DNA of 37,351 nt from Flavobacteriales bacterium (GTDB lineage: Bacteria > Bacteroidota > Bacteroidia > Flavobacteriales_D > Parvicellaceae). Numbering within the stretch: position 1 is the stretch's first letter; every line of letters begins with the position of its first letter. The stretch lies in NCBI GenBank assembly GCA_024635865.1, contig JAGXIB010000206.1, positions 1-37,351 of the forward strand. Reading direction: 5' to 3'. The position numbers were made by a program, and so were the translations under genes. The notes beneath the pieces are model-generated. The model was not told where the DNA came from, did no database searches, and saw only the letters and a program-made list of their open reading frames with translations. Below, piece after piece: positions 28,573-35,713 of the stretch.

Positions 28573-29235
28573 TTAAAGGTTTATTTTTTGACTTATAATG
28601 TTTATAACCTCTTTTAAACGAGTTTCTACTAGATCTAAGTACTCTTCATAATCCTTGATTTTTGGTTTTGCCAAATGATTTAAAATTACTGAGGAATTAT
28701 TTATAGGAGTTAGAAATCTTTTTTCAATTTGGGAAATAGAATTATGAGAAAAAGAACAAAGCTCATTATAGGTAGTTTGGTAAAGTAATAATAAGTCAAG
28801 GTTATTAAATTTTTCTTTATAATCAAGTGCTAATGGCAATGCTGTTAATTTTCTTTCATTAATCTCATTCTTTAGCATCAAAACTCTTGATTTTATTTCT
28901 TGATTTTCAATAGGATTTGAAGGCGAAGAAATTGTATTTAGTTTATTTAATTCAAAATTAAGGTCTTTAATAATATAGTTGTTGATATATGAAGGTTCCT
29001 TAAGGAGAGTTTTTAAATCAATGTAAGTTTCTAAGAAGGTTCTGACTAAAATCGGAGTGTTTCTAAGTTTATTATGTTTAATTAGAAAATAAATATTTTC
29101 TGAAATATCATATAATGATAAAAAGTATAAGTAGTAAAGGAAGTCTTCATGATTACTTACTTTAGGTATTTTATCTACTAATTTATCAGCTTCTTTTAAA
29201 ATATTTGAAAGAGATTCTATTTTTGAATGTTGCAT
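28573..29235 (-). CDS. DUF5677-like helical protein
   Basis: All-helical; RNTPILVRTFLETYIDLKTLL and YNELCSFSHNSISQIEKRF resemble the DUF5677 pattern. Its stop abuts the stop of the convergent gene. Confidence 0.5.
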   Translation of the reverse strand: MQHSKIESLSNILKEADKLVDKIPKVSNHEDFLYYLYFLSLYDISENIYFLIKHNKLRNTPILVRTFLETYIDLKTLLKEPSYINNYIIKDLNFELNKLNTISSPSNPIENQEIKSRVLMLKNEINERKLTALPLALDYKEKFNNLDLLLLYQTTYNELCSFSHNSISQIEKRFLTPINNSSVILNHLAKPKIKDYEEYLDLVETRLKEVINIISQKINL

Positions 29236-29247
29236 TTTTTTTAACTT

Positions 29248-29376
29248 TTACATTGTCCCCATCCTTGTCTTCGCCCCTTTTCTTCCATCGCATTTACGTG
29301 GTGTTTTTTTTGTTGCGCTACAAGAAGCTAAAAACAAAACAACTAATCCGAATACTATTCCTTTTTTAACGTTCAT
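29248..29376 (-). CDS. 42-aa small lipoprotein, below track cutoff
   Basis: MNVKKGIVFGLVVLFLASCSATKKTPRKCDGRKGAKTRMGTM*: signal peptide, LASC lipobox, basic Cys/Gly-containing tail. Confidence 0.72.
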   Translation of the reverse strand: MNVKKGIVFGLVVLFLASCSATKKTPRKCDGRKGAKTRMGTM

Positions 29377-29434
29377 AAGCAATGATTTTGAATTGAGTAT
29401 ACCTTAAAGAGAAGTAAAAAGTTACAGAGAGGCT

Positions 29435-31858
29435 TTATACTCTCAATTGCAAAGTCAAAAAGTAATTGCGGGGAGCTGATGGTATAATTCCAGGGCCAGG
29501 GTATGCCGTTGCTCTACGAGTAAAATAAATACTATTAGTCAGGTTGTTTATTCCTGTTTCAAGCTGTAGCATTTTCCACTTGTATTTTACCGACCAGTCT
29601 ACAATCGAATAAGCAGGGATTAGACCGTTTACCGCATTAGCCTGTTGTAAGGTATTGGTAGCATCAGAAAAGTGCTCTGAAGTATAAGAATATTGAAATT
29701 GTGTACTAAAATTACCATAACCAACCCGAAGGCCAGTTTTAAAAGTGAATTCTGGCACCAACTCTACTTTTTTATTATTGAAAGCTGGCTCTAAGGAGCT
29801 GACATATTTAGCATCTGTAAAAGCTGTGTTTACAAATGTTCTAACAGACAGTTTTGAGGTGTCGTTAATCAATAGCTTCCACCAATCAATAGCGATCATT
29901 CCTTCCACTCCTTTGGTGACAGATTTAGAAATGTTTGTTCTGTATTGGTAGACATTAAATAAAACAGGGTCAGTTTGTATCGCTGTTCCAATACGGTTAT
30001 CATACGAAAGTAAAAACAAAGAAATATCATAGTTAATTTTGTTTCCAACTAACCCTCTAACTCCTAAGTCAAAATTATAGCCTTTTTCATCCTCTAGGTT
30101 GGGATCTATTTTAAAATTAGGGTTTTGAATTTGCATATCGGTAAAGTTTATGCTTCGGTAATTTTGAGAAGCGTTGGCATAAACCTCTAATGTGTCACTT
30201 TGTTTATAGTTTAAGCCTAAGCCTCCAATAACAAAAGAACGATTGTTAGATTGAGTCTCAGTAACTTTCTCATCAAAAACAACATTCCCAGCCAAGTCAG
30301 TTACGGTGTTTCTATACCAACCATTGGCATTAGTGTTTATAGATTCAAATCGGACACCAGGAGTAATACTAAAGTGATTGGTTAATGCAAAAATGTGTTC
30401 TATGAAAGCAGAAATATTCTGGCTTGGAAATTCATAATCAGAACCTTCTACGTAGTTAGGGTTGAGGTATTCAAAATTGGGTTGATCGGTGCTGTCTGCC
30501 AACCCTTGCATACTATGGTTGTATCCTTTGTAATACCTAAAGCCAGTAACAAATGCCCAAATATTATCCTTTACCGTATAGGTTTTAAGAAACCTGGTTT
30601 CATTTCCAAAATTCATAAACTCTCCCAAAATATAATCACGTTCTTGTAAGGGGTCAATCCTGTTTATTTGTTCTAAAACACCTAACGCTTTTCTGTTGGC
30701 AATTAAACCAAAGAATCTACTGTTGATTCGAGCTGAAGAATTAAATTCATGGTCGAATTGAAAAGCCGCTAAATTCCAATCGACTTGAAACCAGTTTCTA
30801 GTTCTGTAAGAGGTGTCAGGGTTAGTGTTAAATTGTAAGTCAGTTAACCCACCAGGTTGGTGAGCTAAATAACTCATCTTAGTGAATTCAATATTAGCGC
30901 TTGTTTTCTCACTGAATTTATATTGTGCATTGATGCCAATAGCATTTACATCAAATTCAGAATTAGGTCTAAAATCATTCCCTTTTTTGTATTGAGCATA
31001 GGCATAATAGTTCCATTTTTTTGTGCTTCCTCCTAGCTCTAAAAATGTATTTGATAACCCAAAAGAACCATTGGTTTGTCTTAAAGTCGCTTCTAGTTTT
31101 TTTTCTTCATTTCCTGTTTTCAAAACAAAGTTTAATAACCCACCAAATTGAGTTCCGAATTGTAAGGCAGCAGCACCTCTAATCAGTTGTATTTTTTTGA
31201 CAGCCTCTGTTGGTGGAATGTAATAGGTTTCTGGATAGCCCAATGCATCCGCACTTATGTCATAGCCGTTTTGTCGCGTATTATAATTAGAAGTTCTGCT
31301 GGGGTTCAAGCCTCTTCCTCCGATACCTAATTGAATACCAGCTCCATCACTTTCCCAGATATTTAATCCAGGTATTTGGGCGTAAATTTGCCTCCCTTGG
31401 TTGACAGCTTTATTTCCGCCTGTTTGTTCAATGTCTATGACTTCGTTTTTTTTCCCTTGACTTATTAAAACTCCTTCGATTGGTCGCATCCGCTTAGTCG
31501 CCCCCACACCATTTTTTTTATTTCCTGACACATCGACACCTTCAAGATTGTATGCTAACTCTTTTAATGTTGCATTTACTTTGGTGTTTGACTTGTTAAT
31601 GGTAACCGTCACTTTTTTCTGTTCGAAGCCCAAGGTGTAATAAATGACTTCGTATTTTCCAAAAGGAATAGAATCTGTTTTATAATTCCCTTGAATATCA
31701 GAATAATAAGTTTTTCGGAGAGAAGAAATACTAATCACCTTTTTATCCTCAAGTGCTTTACTTTTTGTTTTAATGACTCCGGAAAGAATTCCTTTATTTT
31801 GTGCAAAAGAAACTATGCTAATGAAAGCGAACAAGTATAAGGTTAGAAACTTATTCAT
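29435..31858 (-). CDS. TonB-dependent receptor, FecA-like
   Basis: Signal peptide MNKFLTLYLFAFISIVSFAQ, CarboxypepD_reg-like domain, plug GGNKAVNQGRQIYAQIPGLNIWESDGAGIQLGIGGRGLNPSRTSNYNTRQNGYDISADALGYPETYYIPP, barrel ending FLTLQLRV. Preferred start 31858, overlapping the HTTM stop by 8 bp. Confidence 0.94.
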   Translation of the reverse strand: MNKFLTLYLFAFISIVSFAQNKGILSGVIKTKSKALEDKKVISISSLRKTYYSDIQGNYKTDSIPFGKYEVIYYTLGFEQKKVTVTINKSNTKVNATLKELAYNLEGVDVSGNKKNGVGATKRMRPIEGVLISQGKKNEVIDIEQTGGNKAVNQGRQIYAQIPGLNIWESDGAGIQLGIGGRGLNPSRTSNYNTRQNGYDISADALGYPETYYIPPTEAVKKIQLIRGAAALQFGTQFGGLLNFVLKTGNEEKKLEATLRQTNGSFGLSNTFLELGGSTKKWNYYAYAQYKKGNDFRPNSEFDVNAIGINAQYKFSEKTSANIEFTKMSYLAHQPGGLTDLQFNTNPDTSYRTRNWFQVDWNLAAFQFDHEFNSSARINSRFFGLIANRKALGVLEQINRIDPLQERDYILGEFMNFGNETRFLKTYTVKDNIWAFVTGFRYYKGYNHSMQGLADSTDQPNFEYLNPNYVEGSDYEFPSQNISAFIEHIFALTNHFSITPGVRFESINTNANGWYRNTVTDLAGNVVFDEKVTETQSNNRSFVIGGLGLNYKQSDTLEVYANASQNYRSINFTDMQIQNPNFKIDPNLEDEKGYNFDLGVRGLVGNKINYDISLFLLSYDNRIGTAIQTDPVLFNVYQYRTNISKSVTKGVEGMIAIDWWKLLINDTSKLSVRTFVNTAFTDAKYVSSLEPAFNNKKVELVPEFTFKTGLRVGYGNFSTQFQYSYTSEHFSDATNTLQQANAVNGLIPAYSIVDWSVKYKWKMLQLETGINNLTNSIYFTRRATAYPGPGIIPSAPRNYFLTLQLRV

Positions 31859-33203
31859 AAGGTAAAATCCATTTCTTTGAAGCAAACCCTCTTTTTTCTT
31901 TCGCAAGGTCTACGTTTGGCTCTATAAACATTCTACTTCCTTTGTTAAACAGAGCGACTTTAACCGAACCATAAACTTCGGGGACTTCTATTTTTTGGGT
32001 TTTTCCATCTAACTCATAAGTATAATTTTTGTATTGGTCTCTAAGGTAATGAGCATATTGTAAAATCATATCGGGCTGTGTAGCCATCATTTTCTCTTGT
32101 TGTGGTGTTAAGTAGTCCGAATTGTTTATAATTAAGTTGCTATTGGTCTCTGGGTCTTTTACTTTAAACTCAGCATAACCAGCTTTTTCTATAAGCATCA
32201 CTCGCCAACTAAAACGATAGCCTTGTTCTGTCCAAAAAAGGTCACCACTGTATAGTAAATATCGAAAAGGGACGAAGACTTGAATGGTAATAAAAAGGAG
32301 GATTATAATTTTTGTGCTTTTTTTAACGGGTCTAGTCTTTTTTAAAATGACTGGACTTGACTTCCCAGAGTTAATAAAAGCTAACAGTCGCCTATGAAAG
32401 TTCGTAGAAAAGAAGATGGTAGTGCTCAAGATCATTACAAAAGGAAACACTCCAATTGGAAACATAGCAGCTGTAATGACATGAAAAAAAACAACCACGA
32501 CATAACCATAAACTCTTAACCGCTTGTTGAATAAAACAAAAGGAATACAAAGGTCAAATAACATTCCTCCCCAGCTAAAAAGGTATGCAGTAAGGTCATA
32601 GTGCATTAGAGACCCAATGACAGGTAAGTCGGTTTGGTGTTTTAACCAGTTGGTTAATGGTTGAGCTTCAATTAGCCAGTGATAATTTATTTTAGCAATG
32701 CCTGCAAAAAAATAGACCATCCCTAACTGTAGCTTAACGCTGTTAATCGTCCAACTTGGAACGGTGAGTTTTTCTTTAACAATTTTAAAGTAAACATCAA
32801 GCGAAAAGTATCTGTTTGCAGGCAAGAAAATTAAAATAAAACTGACCAGACTAATAAAATAATAATGGTTTAAGTAATTTGTTTTATCTATTAATTCGAC
32901 ATAAGTAAATAAAGTAAAGTAGGAAATGGTTGCTATTCTATAAAACCCTCCCAAGGCGATTAGTAGACTAGACAAGAGCAATAGTATAAACACCGTATTC
33001 ATTCCCACTTCCCCCAAAGGTTTTACCCAATCAAAACCATAATAAGTAAAGAAGTAGGTAGGCTTTACATATAGGTCGTAAACCCAACCTTTAAATAGAA
33101 AACGAGCTGTACTAAAGAATAACAATAAACCAAAAAGAATCCTGAAAACTACTAAAGGAGCAATGTCTTTCTCTGAGTTAAAGAATTTTTTTAATAAGCG
33201 CAT
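31851..33203 (-). CDS. HTTM domain (vitamin K-dependent gamma-carboxylase-like) membrane protein
   Basis: Multi-TM; LGMVYFFAGIAKINYHWLIEAQPLTNWLKHQTDLP...GGMLFDLCIPFVLF...FHVITAAMFPIGVFPFVMI matches the HTTM/VKGC signature. Confidence 0.9.
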   Translation of the reverse strand: MRLLKKFFNSEKDIAPLVVFRILFGLLLFFSTARFLFKGWVYDLYVKPTYFFTYYGFDWVKPLGEVGMNTVFILLLLSSLLIALGGFYRIATISYFTLFTYVELIDKTNYLNHYYFISLVSFILIFLPANRYFSLDVYFKIVKEKLTVPSWTINSVKLQLGMVYFFAGIAKINYHWLIEAQPLTNWLKHQTDLPVIGSLMHYDLTAYLFSWGGMLFDLCIPFVLFNKRLRVYGYVVVVFFHVITAAMFPIGVFPFVMILSTTIFFSTNFHRRLLAFINSGKSSPVILKKTRPVKKSTKIIILLFITIQVFVPFRYLLYSGDLFWTEQGYRFSWRVMLIEKAGYAEFKVKDPETNSNLIINNSDYLTPQQEKMMATQPDMILQYAHYLRDQYKNYTYELDGKTQKIEVPEVYGSVKVALFNKGSRMFIEPNVDLAKEKRGFASKKWILPYE

Positions 33204-33224
33204 TTTTATTTATTTCAGACAAAA

Positions 33225-34406
33225 TTAATCTCCGTCGTTGTCTTGGTAGGTTACTAGAACCCCAAGAGCAGAAGTTAAATCTACTTTAATTAGTGGAACT
33301 AATTTTTGCATCTCTTGATAGGTAGCTAATACTTCTGTAGAATTATTAACAACTTCGAAAGAAAGTGGGTTTGAATGAGAGTTTAAGGCTGTTATAATCT
33401 TAGTAATTTGTGTGTCGATTGTTGTTTCTAATGCGTTGCCATTTGCATCTTTAGCGGAAACAAAGTTAATGTAGTCGTCTAACCCTTGTCCTGTTTCATT
33501 AGAAGAAAACCCATTTCCTTTTATATATTTTCTCATGGCTTGCATTGTAGCTTCAACAAATTCAATGGAGTATCCAGAGTAAAACCCTTCTACGTGTCCT
33601 GGCATTGCTTGTTGAGAAAACCCATTAAAGACCCCAGCTGGTAATCCTACTTTACCTTTTCTTACGTAAGTTTCAAAATGAGAACTTAAGGCATTAACTA
33701 AATTACTAACTGCACTTCCTTGAGAATTGTTTGTATTGTTGTTTTTAAACGCTTCGCTGTAGGTAGCGTTCCAATTTAATAAAACAGTTGAAGCATTTGT
33801 TTTTAACTCATCAGAAATGGCAGTAAGGTAATCTTTCGCTGCTACATTATTCATAAAGTAATCTATGACGGCTTGTTTATTAGCTCCTGTTCCAAATAGT
33901 AAATAGTCGATTGCTTGTAAGCCCTTTGCATCAAAATTGCTTGGAATTTGAAGGTCGTAAGTTCCAGTTGAGATATTAGAGTTTATCAAAACAGTGTCAA
34001 CTGGAAAAATATTTGTTTGTGCTTTTAAGCTAATGTCTTTTGCTGGTCCAAAGTCTATAAAAGCAACCGACTGCCAATCAATACAGGCCTGCTTCCAGCT
34101 TAGCCTTAGTTCTTGTAATGTTGAGGTGGATGGGCTGGTGTTAAATAGGTTAACTTTACTTTTTAAGTTAGTAAGCGTCAATTCATAATTAGAATATGCT
34201 GGAATAATGTAGTTCTGTGCAATATTGGTTAACATTGTCGCTCTATCATAATTTCCTACAACATTATAGTCGCAACTTCCGTCATCTTTTTTTGCTTTAT
34301 TGTCGTAGTTACTAGCAGTTGAATCGGTACACCCTTTTCTTTTACAACCTACTGTTGTTAAGCTAGCAATTACTATTATTCCAATTAAAAGATTCTTCAC
34401 ACTCAT
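33225..34406 (-). CDS. imelysin-like (peptidase M75 family) lipoprotein with acidic N-terminal module
   Basis: Lipobox TTVGC then KRKGCTDSTASNYDNKAKKDDGSCDY. Imelysin-like LRLSWKQACIDWQSVAFIDFGPAKD...KGLQAIDYLLFG...MPGHVEGFYSGYSIEFVEATMQAMRKYIKG. Confidence 0.88.
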   Translation of the reverse strand: MSVKNLLIGIIVIASLTTVGCKRKGCTDSTASNYDNKAKKDDGSCDYNVVGNYDRATMLTNIAQNYIIPAYSNYELTLTNLKSKVNLFNTSPSTSTLQELRLSWKQACIDWQSVAFIDFGPAKDISLKAQTNIFPVDTVLINSNISTGTYDLQIPSNFDAKGLQAIDYLLFGTGANKQAVIDYFMNNVAAKDYLTAISDELKTNASTVLLNWNATYSEAFKNNNTNNSQGSAVSNLVNALSSHFETYVRKGKVGLPAGVFNGFSQQAMPGHVEGFYSGYSIEFVEATMQAMRKYIKGNGFSSNETGQGLDDYINFVSAKDANGNALETTIDTQITKIITALNSHSNPLSFEVVNNSTEVLATYQEMQKLVPLIKVDLTSALGVLVTYQDNDGD

Positions 34407-34428
34407 ATAAAATTATTTGAAATGTTTT

Positions 34429-35649
34429 CTAAAGGTTAGGAACATAACTGGTTAAGTTTGTTTTGCTAGCAATATTATCTATAGCTATTTGAAGGCTATT
34501 TAAAGTTACGTTATTAAAGTCTGTTCCTATCGTAACTAATACATTATTTATGTCTGTTGATGACATTCCTCCGTTACTTGCTCTGTATCCATACTTTAGC
34601 CCTTCAAGAAAAGCTACAGCTTCAGAGATAACATGATTTCTAGTTGTGGCATTTGCAATGTTTGCTTTTGCTACTTTTAAATAATGAATTGCAGAAGCCG
34701 CTCCAACTTTTTCCATTTCTACATTAATAATAGCAACTTGGGCATCTCTAGTTGTATAATCTTCGTTTGATATTGCTGCTCTTCCTTTTCTAAATGCTGC
34801 AGCAATTTTTGTGGCAGAACCTAAAACCCCTTCTCTTGAGTTGGCGTATTCTCCCCAAAACCTATCTGTTCCATTAGTTGGAAAATCTATTTCAGAAGTA
34901 AAATATCCATAAGCTTCATCCCAGTGGTGTTCCATCGTAGTGTAATACTTTCCATTAGCAGCGTCAACTGCTGCAGTATTGTCGTCAGTAGAAATATTAG
35001 CTAAGTAATTCATGGTCATTTGGTTCGTAAATACAGCTCCCATTAATCCTTTTTCAATTAACTGTGTGTATTCTTGACCTTCTCCAGACATTAAATAAGG
35101 TCCTTTTACTCCATCGTTAGGCCATACTCCTCCAGTTCCGCTAGCTCCATTTTCTTGTCCCGATGTAGTCGTAGCACTTAATGTTCCAAGAGCATCCATA
35201 TAGTTTTCAAAAGTTGTTTGTACTCCTACATCTCCACTTGCTGTTTTACTTTTTAATTGTTTAGAAGACCCTGTCATTCCCAAAGAATTAAGATCAGTCC
35301 AAGTATATCCAGTATTTGAATACATGTCTTTTAAGGTCTGTGCATTAACTGCCGTTCCAGCAGTATTAGCTGTTTTCATGTAAGCAACCATTTCGCTTAG
35401 CATATCCAGACGTTCTTTCTGGCCGCTAAAACTTACTGTACTGTTTCCATTTTCATCTTTATAAACATAAGAGGTTGGAATAGAGTAAGTTTCTTCTTCT
35501 GAAACAGTAAACTCACAGGAACCGTCATCTTTCTTAGCCTTTTGACTATAGTTGGTTGCGTTAATATCGGTGCATCCTTTCTTTTTACAACTTGTTGCTA
35601 AAATTAGGCTTCCTCCTAATGCAATTAACATTAATTTCTTTACTTGCAT
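34429..35649 (-). CDS. DUF4856 lipoprotein with acidic N-terminal module
   Basis: Lipobox LATSC then KKKGCTDINATNYSQKAKKDDGSCEF; VSFSGQKERLDMLSEMVAYMKTAN, MEHHWDEAYGYF, RFWGEYANSREGVLGSATKIAAAFRKGRAAI. Confidence 0.87.
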   Translation of the reverse strand: MQVKKLMLIALGGSLILATSCKKKGCTDINATNYSQKAKKDDGSCEFTVSEEETYSIPTSYVYKDENGNSTVSFSGQKERLDMLSEMVAYMKTANTAGTAVNAQTLKDMYSNTGYTWTDLNSLGMTGSSKQLKSKTASGDVGVQTTFENYMDALGTLSATTTSGQENGASGTGGVWPNDGVKGPYLMSGEGQEYTQLIEKGLMGAVFTNQMTMNYLANISTDDNTAAVDAANGKYYTTMEHHWDEAYGYFTSEIDFPTNGTDRFWGEYANSREGVLGSATKIAAAFRKGRAAISNEDYTTRDAQVAIINVEMEKVGAASAIHYLKVAKANIANATTRNHVISEAVAFLEGLKYGYRASNGGMSSTDINNVLVTIGTDFNNVTLNSLQIAIDNIASKTNLTSYVPNL

Positions 35650-35682
35650 GTGCTATTATTTAGATTAAATATAAATAGACTG

Positions 35683-35713
35683 CAAATATAGAAGCGATCA
35701 TTAGAAATTACAA
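35683..35713 (-). promoter_or_regulatory. Bacteroidota-type promoter for the DUF4856/imelysin/HTTM/TonB block
   Basis: On the minus strand TTG (35713-35711), 20-nt spacer, TATATTTG (35690-35683), about 35 nt upstream of the DUF4856 ATG. Confidence 0.6.

Follow-up and report, generated by a model that had tools for sequence, protein, structure and literature searches.

A predicted Fur-controlled iron-acquisition operon of Bacteroidota contains a homologue of the vitamin K-dependent gamma-glutamyl carboxylase

The DNA considered here, hereafter the window, is a stretch of 37,351 nucleotides from a Flavobacteriales bacterium of the Parvicellaceae (contig JAGXIB010000206.1 of assembly GCA_024635865.1), and the system in question is a run of four genes on its reverse strand (29435-35649), which encode, in order, a DUF4856 lipoprotein, an imelysin-like lipoprotein, a homologue of the vitamin K-dependent gamma-glutamyl carboxylase (VKGC), and a TonB-dependent receptor (Table 1). 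The set is conserved across Bacteroidota, is preceded by predicted Fur boxes, and very probably serves iron acquisition. While imelysin/TonB iron uptake is known as a kind of system, what is new here is the unexpected VKGC enzyme within it. Taken as a whole, the operon is read as a Fur-repressed outer-membrane iron system whose VKGC would modify the imelysin, the DUF4856 protein, or both, a proposal to which we give an even chance.

An earlier note on this DNA had placed the four genes on one strand with short gaps and a small overlap and had linked the HTTM protein to VKGC, and both points hold. The gaps are 22 bp between the DUF4856 and imelysin genes and 21 bp between the imelysin and VKGC genes, and the end of the VKGC gene (31851) overlaps the receptor ATG (31858) by 8 bp (ATGAATAA). 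This ATG is the real start of the receptor gene, the TTG given in the list of open reading frames (ORFs) lying further upstream. Pfam assigns the HTTM protein an HTTM domain (PF05090, E=1.8e-76) and, after it, the VKGC lumenal domain (PF22777, E=2.1e-50), which score 257.6 and 171 bits, respectively, against cut-offs of 27.7 each and place the protein in the VKGC family; in a phmmer search it also aligns with PDB chains of human GGCX (E about 1e-37). The receptor has a PF00593 barrel (E=2e-33) and resembles FecA/siderophore-type receptors.

Co-occurrence of the domains was surveyed in 297 genomes sampled from Bacteroidota, the phylum of the window, where the VKGC lumenal domain is present in 70, imelysin in 71, and DUF4856 in 50. 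Of the 51 DUF4856 genes, 47 have a VKGC no more than 6 kb away, and an imelysin is found no more than 3 kb from 60 of the 81 VKGC genes; the Fisher p values for VKGC (7.5e-45 with imelysin, 2e-31 with DUF4856) overstate independence because the genomes are related. Among named carriers, the best 80 of more than 570 matches, the operon arrangement is found in about 77 loci, from Flavobacteriales, Cytophagales, Chitinophagales, Sphingobacteriales, Rhodothermaceae, Fodinibius, and others. Thus, the neighbourhood, which the earlier note had taken for one system recurring in marine Flavobacteriia, behaves as a conserved unit and extends far more broadly in Bacteroidota. These 80 carriers all belong to apparently aerobic lineages and none to Bacteroidales, which is consistent with the O2 requirement of VKGC.

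A scan of 396 Bacteroidota genomes with profiles built from the operon proteins revealed that the 72 genomes with an imelysin match reaching a C-terminal Asp-Gly-Asp (DGD) are exactly the 72 with an operon-type VKGC; none of the 396 has the former alone, and the 16 genomes with only other imelysins all lack the latter. Within Bacteroidota, therefore, operon-type VKGC and DGD-imelysin accompany each other, including in trans. Purely vertical synteny or chance, with no functional link among the neighbours, could draw on the phylogenetic non-independence of the counts, to which two families (f24, f25) contribute many loci, but is very improbable. The order DUF4856-imelysin-VKGC-receptor recurs while the flanking genes vary, and the pieces are retained in trans after rearrangement, DUF4856 being encoded elsewhere in the genome in G079 and G237 and the imelysin in G289, of the same genus. 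Moreover, one genome (G365) is without VKGC, DGD-imelysin, and DUF4856 together, other sampled members of its genus (g78) carrying the operon, and a Fur box is shared. One further genome (G108) has a lone VKGC, its DGD-imelysin being part of a DHOR operon.

The good promoter claimed by the earlier note stood in part. Promoters of Bacteroidota follow a -33/-7 consensus, and the -7 element ahead of the DUF4856 gene, TATATTTG, is a perfect one of this type, making the promoter plausible; a generic sigma-70 scan, which returned fewer sites than in shuffled sequences, lent it no support. Just downstream of the -7 element lies the predicted Fur box ATTTATATTTAATCTAAAT, the single match in a scan of the window with the Riemerella anatipestifer consensus ATTTAGAATTATTCTAAAT (PMC5609570), against 0.21 matches expected window-wide. 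When matches of at least 15 of 19 positions in the 120 bp ahead of the operon's first gene are counted, Fur boxes precede 80% of 110 operons, compared with 3.4% of 883 other gene starts, these being crude ORF calls, and 1.6% of shuffles. In R. anatipestifer, what appear from names and order to be the same four genes are RAYM_09779 (TonB receptor), 09784 ('vitamin K-dependent gamma-carboxylase'), 09789 (imelysin), and 09794 (hypothetical), with values of 2.1-3.1 in the WT-Fe/WT+Fe column and 1.4-1.9 in the delta-fur+Fe/WT+Fe column, both printed as ratios, the passage concerned not giving the scale as log or linear (PMC5609570). The four are table rows there, and the passages that deal with them propose no system or mechanism. 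Because Fur boxes precede most of the operons and the apparent R. anatipestifer homologues respond to iron and to Fur, the operon is best seen as a predicted Fur-controlled operon, with the box at the promoter, and the metal acquisition that the earlier note had suggested can be named as that of iron. In the open-licence PMC papers searched, this table is the only link found between VKGC and either imelysin or iron; in the same literature, DUF4856 goes unmentioned, and no assigned function was found for bacterial VKGC/HTTM proteins, widespread as they are.

It has also to be considered that iron merely regulates the operon and that the metal handled is not only iron, in that carboxylated surface lipoproteins might bind calcium or a different divalent ion and so serve adhesion or the assembly of the receptor. 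Gamma-carboxyglutamate (Gla) is classically a calcium ligand, and the tail of the imelysin, in many cases DxDGD, looks like one half of a calcium loop; nevertheless, with Fur control predicted phylum-wide, imelysins associated with iron (PMC3143127), and a receptor of FecA/siderophore type, this alternative is improbable.

The catalytic, Glu-contacting, and quinone-site residues of human GGCX, including the base K218, have been defined in a cryo-EM study (PMC12589487), whose numbering was mapped onto the window protein through the phmmer alignment. K218 corresponds to K171, H160 to H113, N159 to N112, W223 to W176, A214 to A167, and Y395 to Y329, while F286, F294, and F299 of the quinone pocket correspond to F240, F248, and F253. 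In the 116 operon homologues, K218, H160, N159, W223, A214, and F286 together with F299 are conserved without exception, the Y395 position has Y in 102 sequences and F in the other 14, and the quinone-pocket set of F286, F294, F299, W223, A214, and G259 is 98-100% conserved. The window protein thus shares with GGCX both domains as well as K218, H160, N159, W223, F286, F294, F299, A214, and G259. The operon-type VKGCs form one clade (SH-aLRT 99) whose catalytic residues, as aligned, are intact, and they are probably active enzymes. The possibility that the protein is catalytically dead or structural, acting at the membrane as an assembly factor or chaperone for the receptor or the lipoproteins, would fit its tight coupling to the receptor gene (the two overlap in 80 of 114 loci) and a propeptide domain that is largely missing; given active-site residues invariant in 116 sequences, hard to explain without catalysis, the chance of it is small.

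A second type of VKGC occurs directly after ribF, usually before serS; it keeps K218 and H160 and differs from the operon type at three active-site positions, with N, H, and M in place of T, Y, and V (loci L083, L085, L089, L093, L094, L096, L097, L107, L108, L109, and L117). The source genome itself encodes a second, divergent VKGC homologue (G000:C60:729-2033, L113), which also keeps K218 and H160 and has no imelysin or TonB receptor gene adjacent.

The AlphaFold2 (AF2) model of the imelysin (pLDDT 89.5) has the imelysin fold, Foldseek matching it to 4ecg (E 4e-9), 3pf0 (E 2e-8), and 7xrx (ICMP). The protein has the motif G162-L-Q-A-I-D167, that is, GxxxxD (D or E in homologues), lacks a His at the GxHxxE position, and ends in DGD (33225-33236), a tail disordered in 3pf0. 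This motif and tail assign it to the IPPA/PA4372 family (PMC3143127), whose proteobacterial members lie in Fur-controlled imelysin-DHOR operons; lruB of Leptospira belongs to an imelysin-DHOR-imelysin operon according to the literature. In both Bacteroidota and Proteobacteria, nearly all IPPA-type imelysins have DGD as their last three residues (L247, L248, L249). Despite the coincidence of 72 with 72 genomes, the idea of DGD as a site that VKGC specifically recognises or modifies was rejected; given that it is also present in proteobacterial imelysins whose DHOR operons have no VKGC gene, the tail is a trait of the IPPA family. Imelysin residue E273 is likewise conserved in proteobacterial members, and K374 (gene 33225-34406), near the C-terminus, is invariant only in VKGC-linked imelysins, the position being E, D, K, or L elsewhere.

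In the DUF4856 protein, a conserved H339-x3-E343 stands out, with H339 in 99% and E343 in 106 of 106 operon homologues. In the four DUF4856 homologues encoded away from a VKGC, few as they are, both residues are less conserved, position 343 being E in two. On this thin evidence, E343 is the best single candidate for a modified Glu. The AF2 model of the DUF4856 protein (pLDDT 84) has no significant PDB match, and a hidden imelysin fold was rejected on this ground. The acidic Cys modules, which the earlier note had cast as the modified metal-binding parts of the two lipoproteins, did not survive as carboxylation targets: they are rich in Asp and Lys, their strict pattern is found in 1 of 111 operon imelysins and 5 of 106 DUF4856 proteins, with looser forms in a few near relatives, and being clade-specific they are unlikely targets.

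Several observations weigh against carboxylation as the job of the enzyme. No Glu unique to VKGC-linked imelysins was found, and the DGD-tailed imelysins of P. aeruginosa, Phaeobacter, and Azospirillum reside in DHOR operons with no VKGC nearby. The window protein, with 450 residues compared with the 758 of GGCX, ends near human residue 504 in the alignment and does not span the full PBD-1 and PBD-2; most of PBD-2 and the arch are therefore missing, and animal-type propeptide substrates are not expected. It has a single Cys, so the C99-C450 disulfide of GGCX cannot form, and it differs from the human enzyme in N290 -> T, M401 -> V, and K217 -> A, the first two being active-site changes of the operon type. 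In animals, VKOR recycles vitamin K epoxide. VKOR, however, occurs in 17 of the 70 genomes with VKGC and in 56 of the other 227 (p=1), and it was not found in the source genome (about 91% complete); a vitamin K cycle with VKOR was rejected for want of this association, and any epoxide would have to be recycled in another way, if it is recycled at all. The VKGC orthologue of Leptospira is reportedly altered in activity.

Part of this evidence favours an iron-uptake operon in which VKGC is no carboxylase and uses menaquinol oxidation for another reaction, such as a different side-chain oxidation, the processing of a small-molecule iron carrier, or redox chemistry on iron, where it would stand in for the di-haem peroxidase found with other imelysins. 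The changes at N290 and M401 and the want of VKOR co-occurrence fit this alternative, as do the usual pairing of imelysin systems with an oxidative enzyme, DHOR or EfeB (PMC3143127), and the fusion of DHOR-imelysin modules to the VKGC operon in two loci (L138, L101). Still, the Glu-contacting N159, H160, and Y395 are kept alongside the base K218, H160 being required for Glu carboxylation in the human enzyme (PMC12589487), and VKGC does not simply replace DHOR, the two being encoded together in the same genomes; on balance, this alternative is unlikely.

For the modifying role of VKGC, the following sequence of events is proposed. Fur would release the operon under iron starvation, upon which the TonB receptor would import the iron source, and the IPPA-type imelysin and DUF4856 lipoproteins, located at the outer membrane or close to it, would capture iron or pass it on. 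The VKGC homologue is predicted to reside in the inner membrane, with its lumenal domain and active site facing the periplasm, and would draw on the aerobic menaquinol pool, O2, and CO2 to deprotonate and carboxylate Glu, or otherwise oxidatively modify a residue, in the imelysin and/or DUF4856 protein during passage through the periplasm, enabling the lipoproteins to bind metal or partner properly. That VKGC carboxylates an operon lipoprotein is a serious possibility to which we assign slightly less than an even chance. Somewhat more tentatively, Bacteroidota may make a menaquinol-dependent, vitamin K-type carboxylated lipoprotein for iron uptake, a Gla-like modification by an enzyme family that animals later employed for the proteins of clotting and bone. 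One VKGC clade with its catalytic residues intact is tied to a defined, putatively Fur-controlled iron system with three named partners, whereby bacterial vitamin K-type carboxylation is reduced to a question of one mutant and one mass spectrum and a job in iron acquisition becomes testable. The operon hints at a possible ancestral role for the clotting-factor carboxylase and points to an iron pathway, so far uncharacterised, in Bacteroidota of marine, soil, and freshwater habitats.

Among the known systems close to it, the operon resembles those of the IPPA/PA4372 family (3pf0, Psyc_1802; ICMP-DHOR-PA4372 operons) in imelysin fold, GxxxxE-type motif, C-terminal DGD, lipoprotein signal, and predicted Fur control; in contrast to these, the partner is VKGC instead of a di-haem peroxidase, and DUF4856 and receptor genes are part of the operon. 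Two loci bridge these operon types, their VKGC operon being fused to genes for an imelysin and a DHOR di-haem peroxidase (L138:309-10858 and L101:5088-12119). EfeUOB also has an imelysin domain and is iron related, but the window operon is without the EfeU permease, EfeB, and a cupredoxin domain and has an outer-membrane receptor instead, and hence is not an EfeUOB system.

Table 1. Features of the operon and its surroundings in the window
Feature	Coordinates	Strand	Details
Bacteroidota-type promoter	35683..35713	-	-33 TTG 35713-35711; -7 TATATTTG 35690-35683
Candidate Fur box	35658..35676	-	ATTTATATTTAATCTAAAT; 16/19 to R. anatipestifer consensus; ends 8 bp before DUF4856 ATG
DUF4856 lipoprotein, operon gene 1	34429..35649	-	406 aa; PF16148, E=1.5e-51
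Imelysin-like lipoprotein, IPPA-type	33225..34406	-	393 aa; PF09375, E=2.1e-35
Bacterial VKGC homologue	31851..33203	-	450 aa; HTTM (PF05090) + VKGC lumenal domain (PF22777)
TonB-dependent receptor	29435..31858	-	807 aa; N-terminal CarboxypepD_reg-like domain; ATG start
Lipoprotein ORF, downstream	29248..29376	-	42 aa; outside conserved operon

The tiny lipoprotein that the earlier note had counted to the locus is present as an ORF, but its pattern has no match in any homologous locus, which leaves it outside the system. Directly downstream, on the same strand, lies a DUF5677 gene (28573-29235) that is not conserved with the operon. Lastly, a full-length VKGC homologue is encoded on an alphaproteobacterial plasmid, that of Paracoccus albus (L223), where it lies, without an imelysin, by an AraC regulator, an oxidoreductase, and lipid genes.

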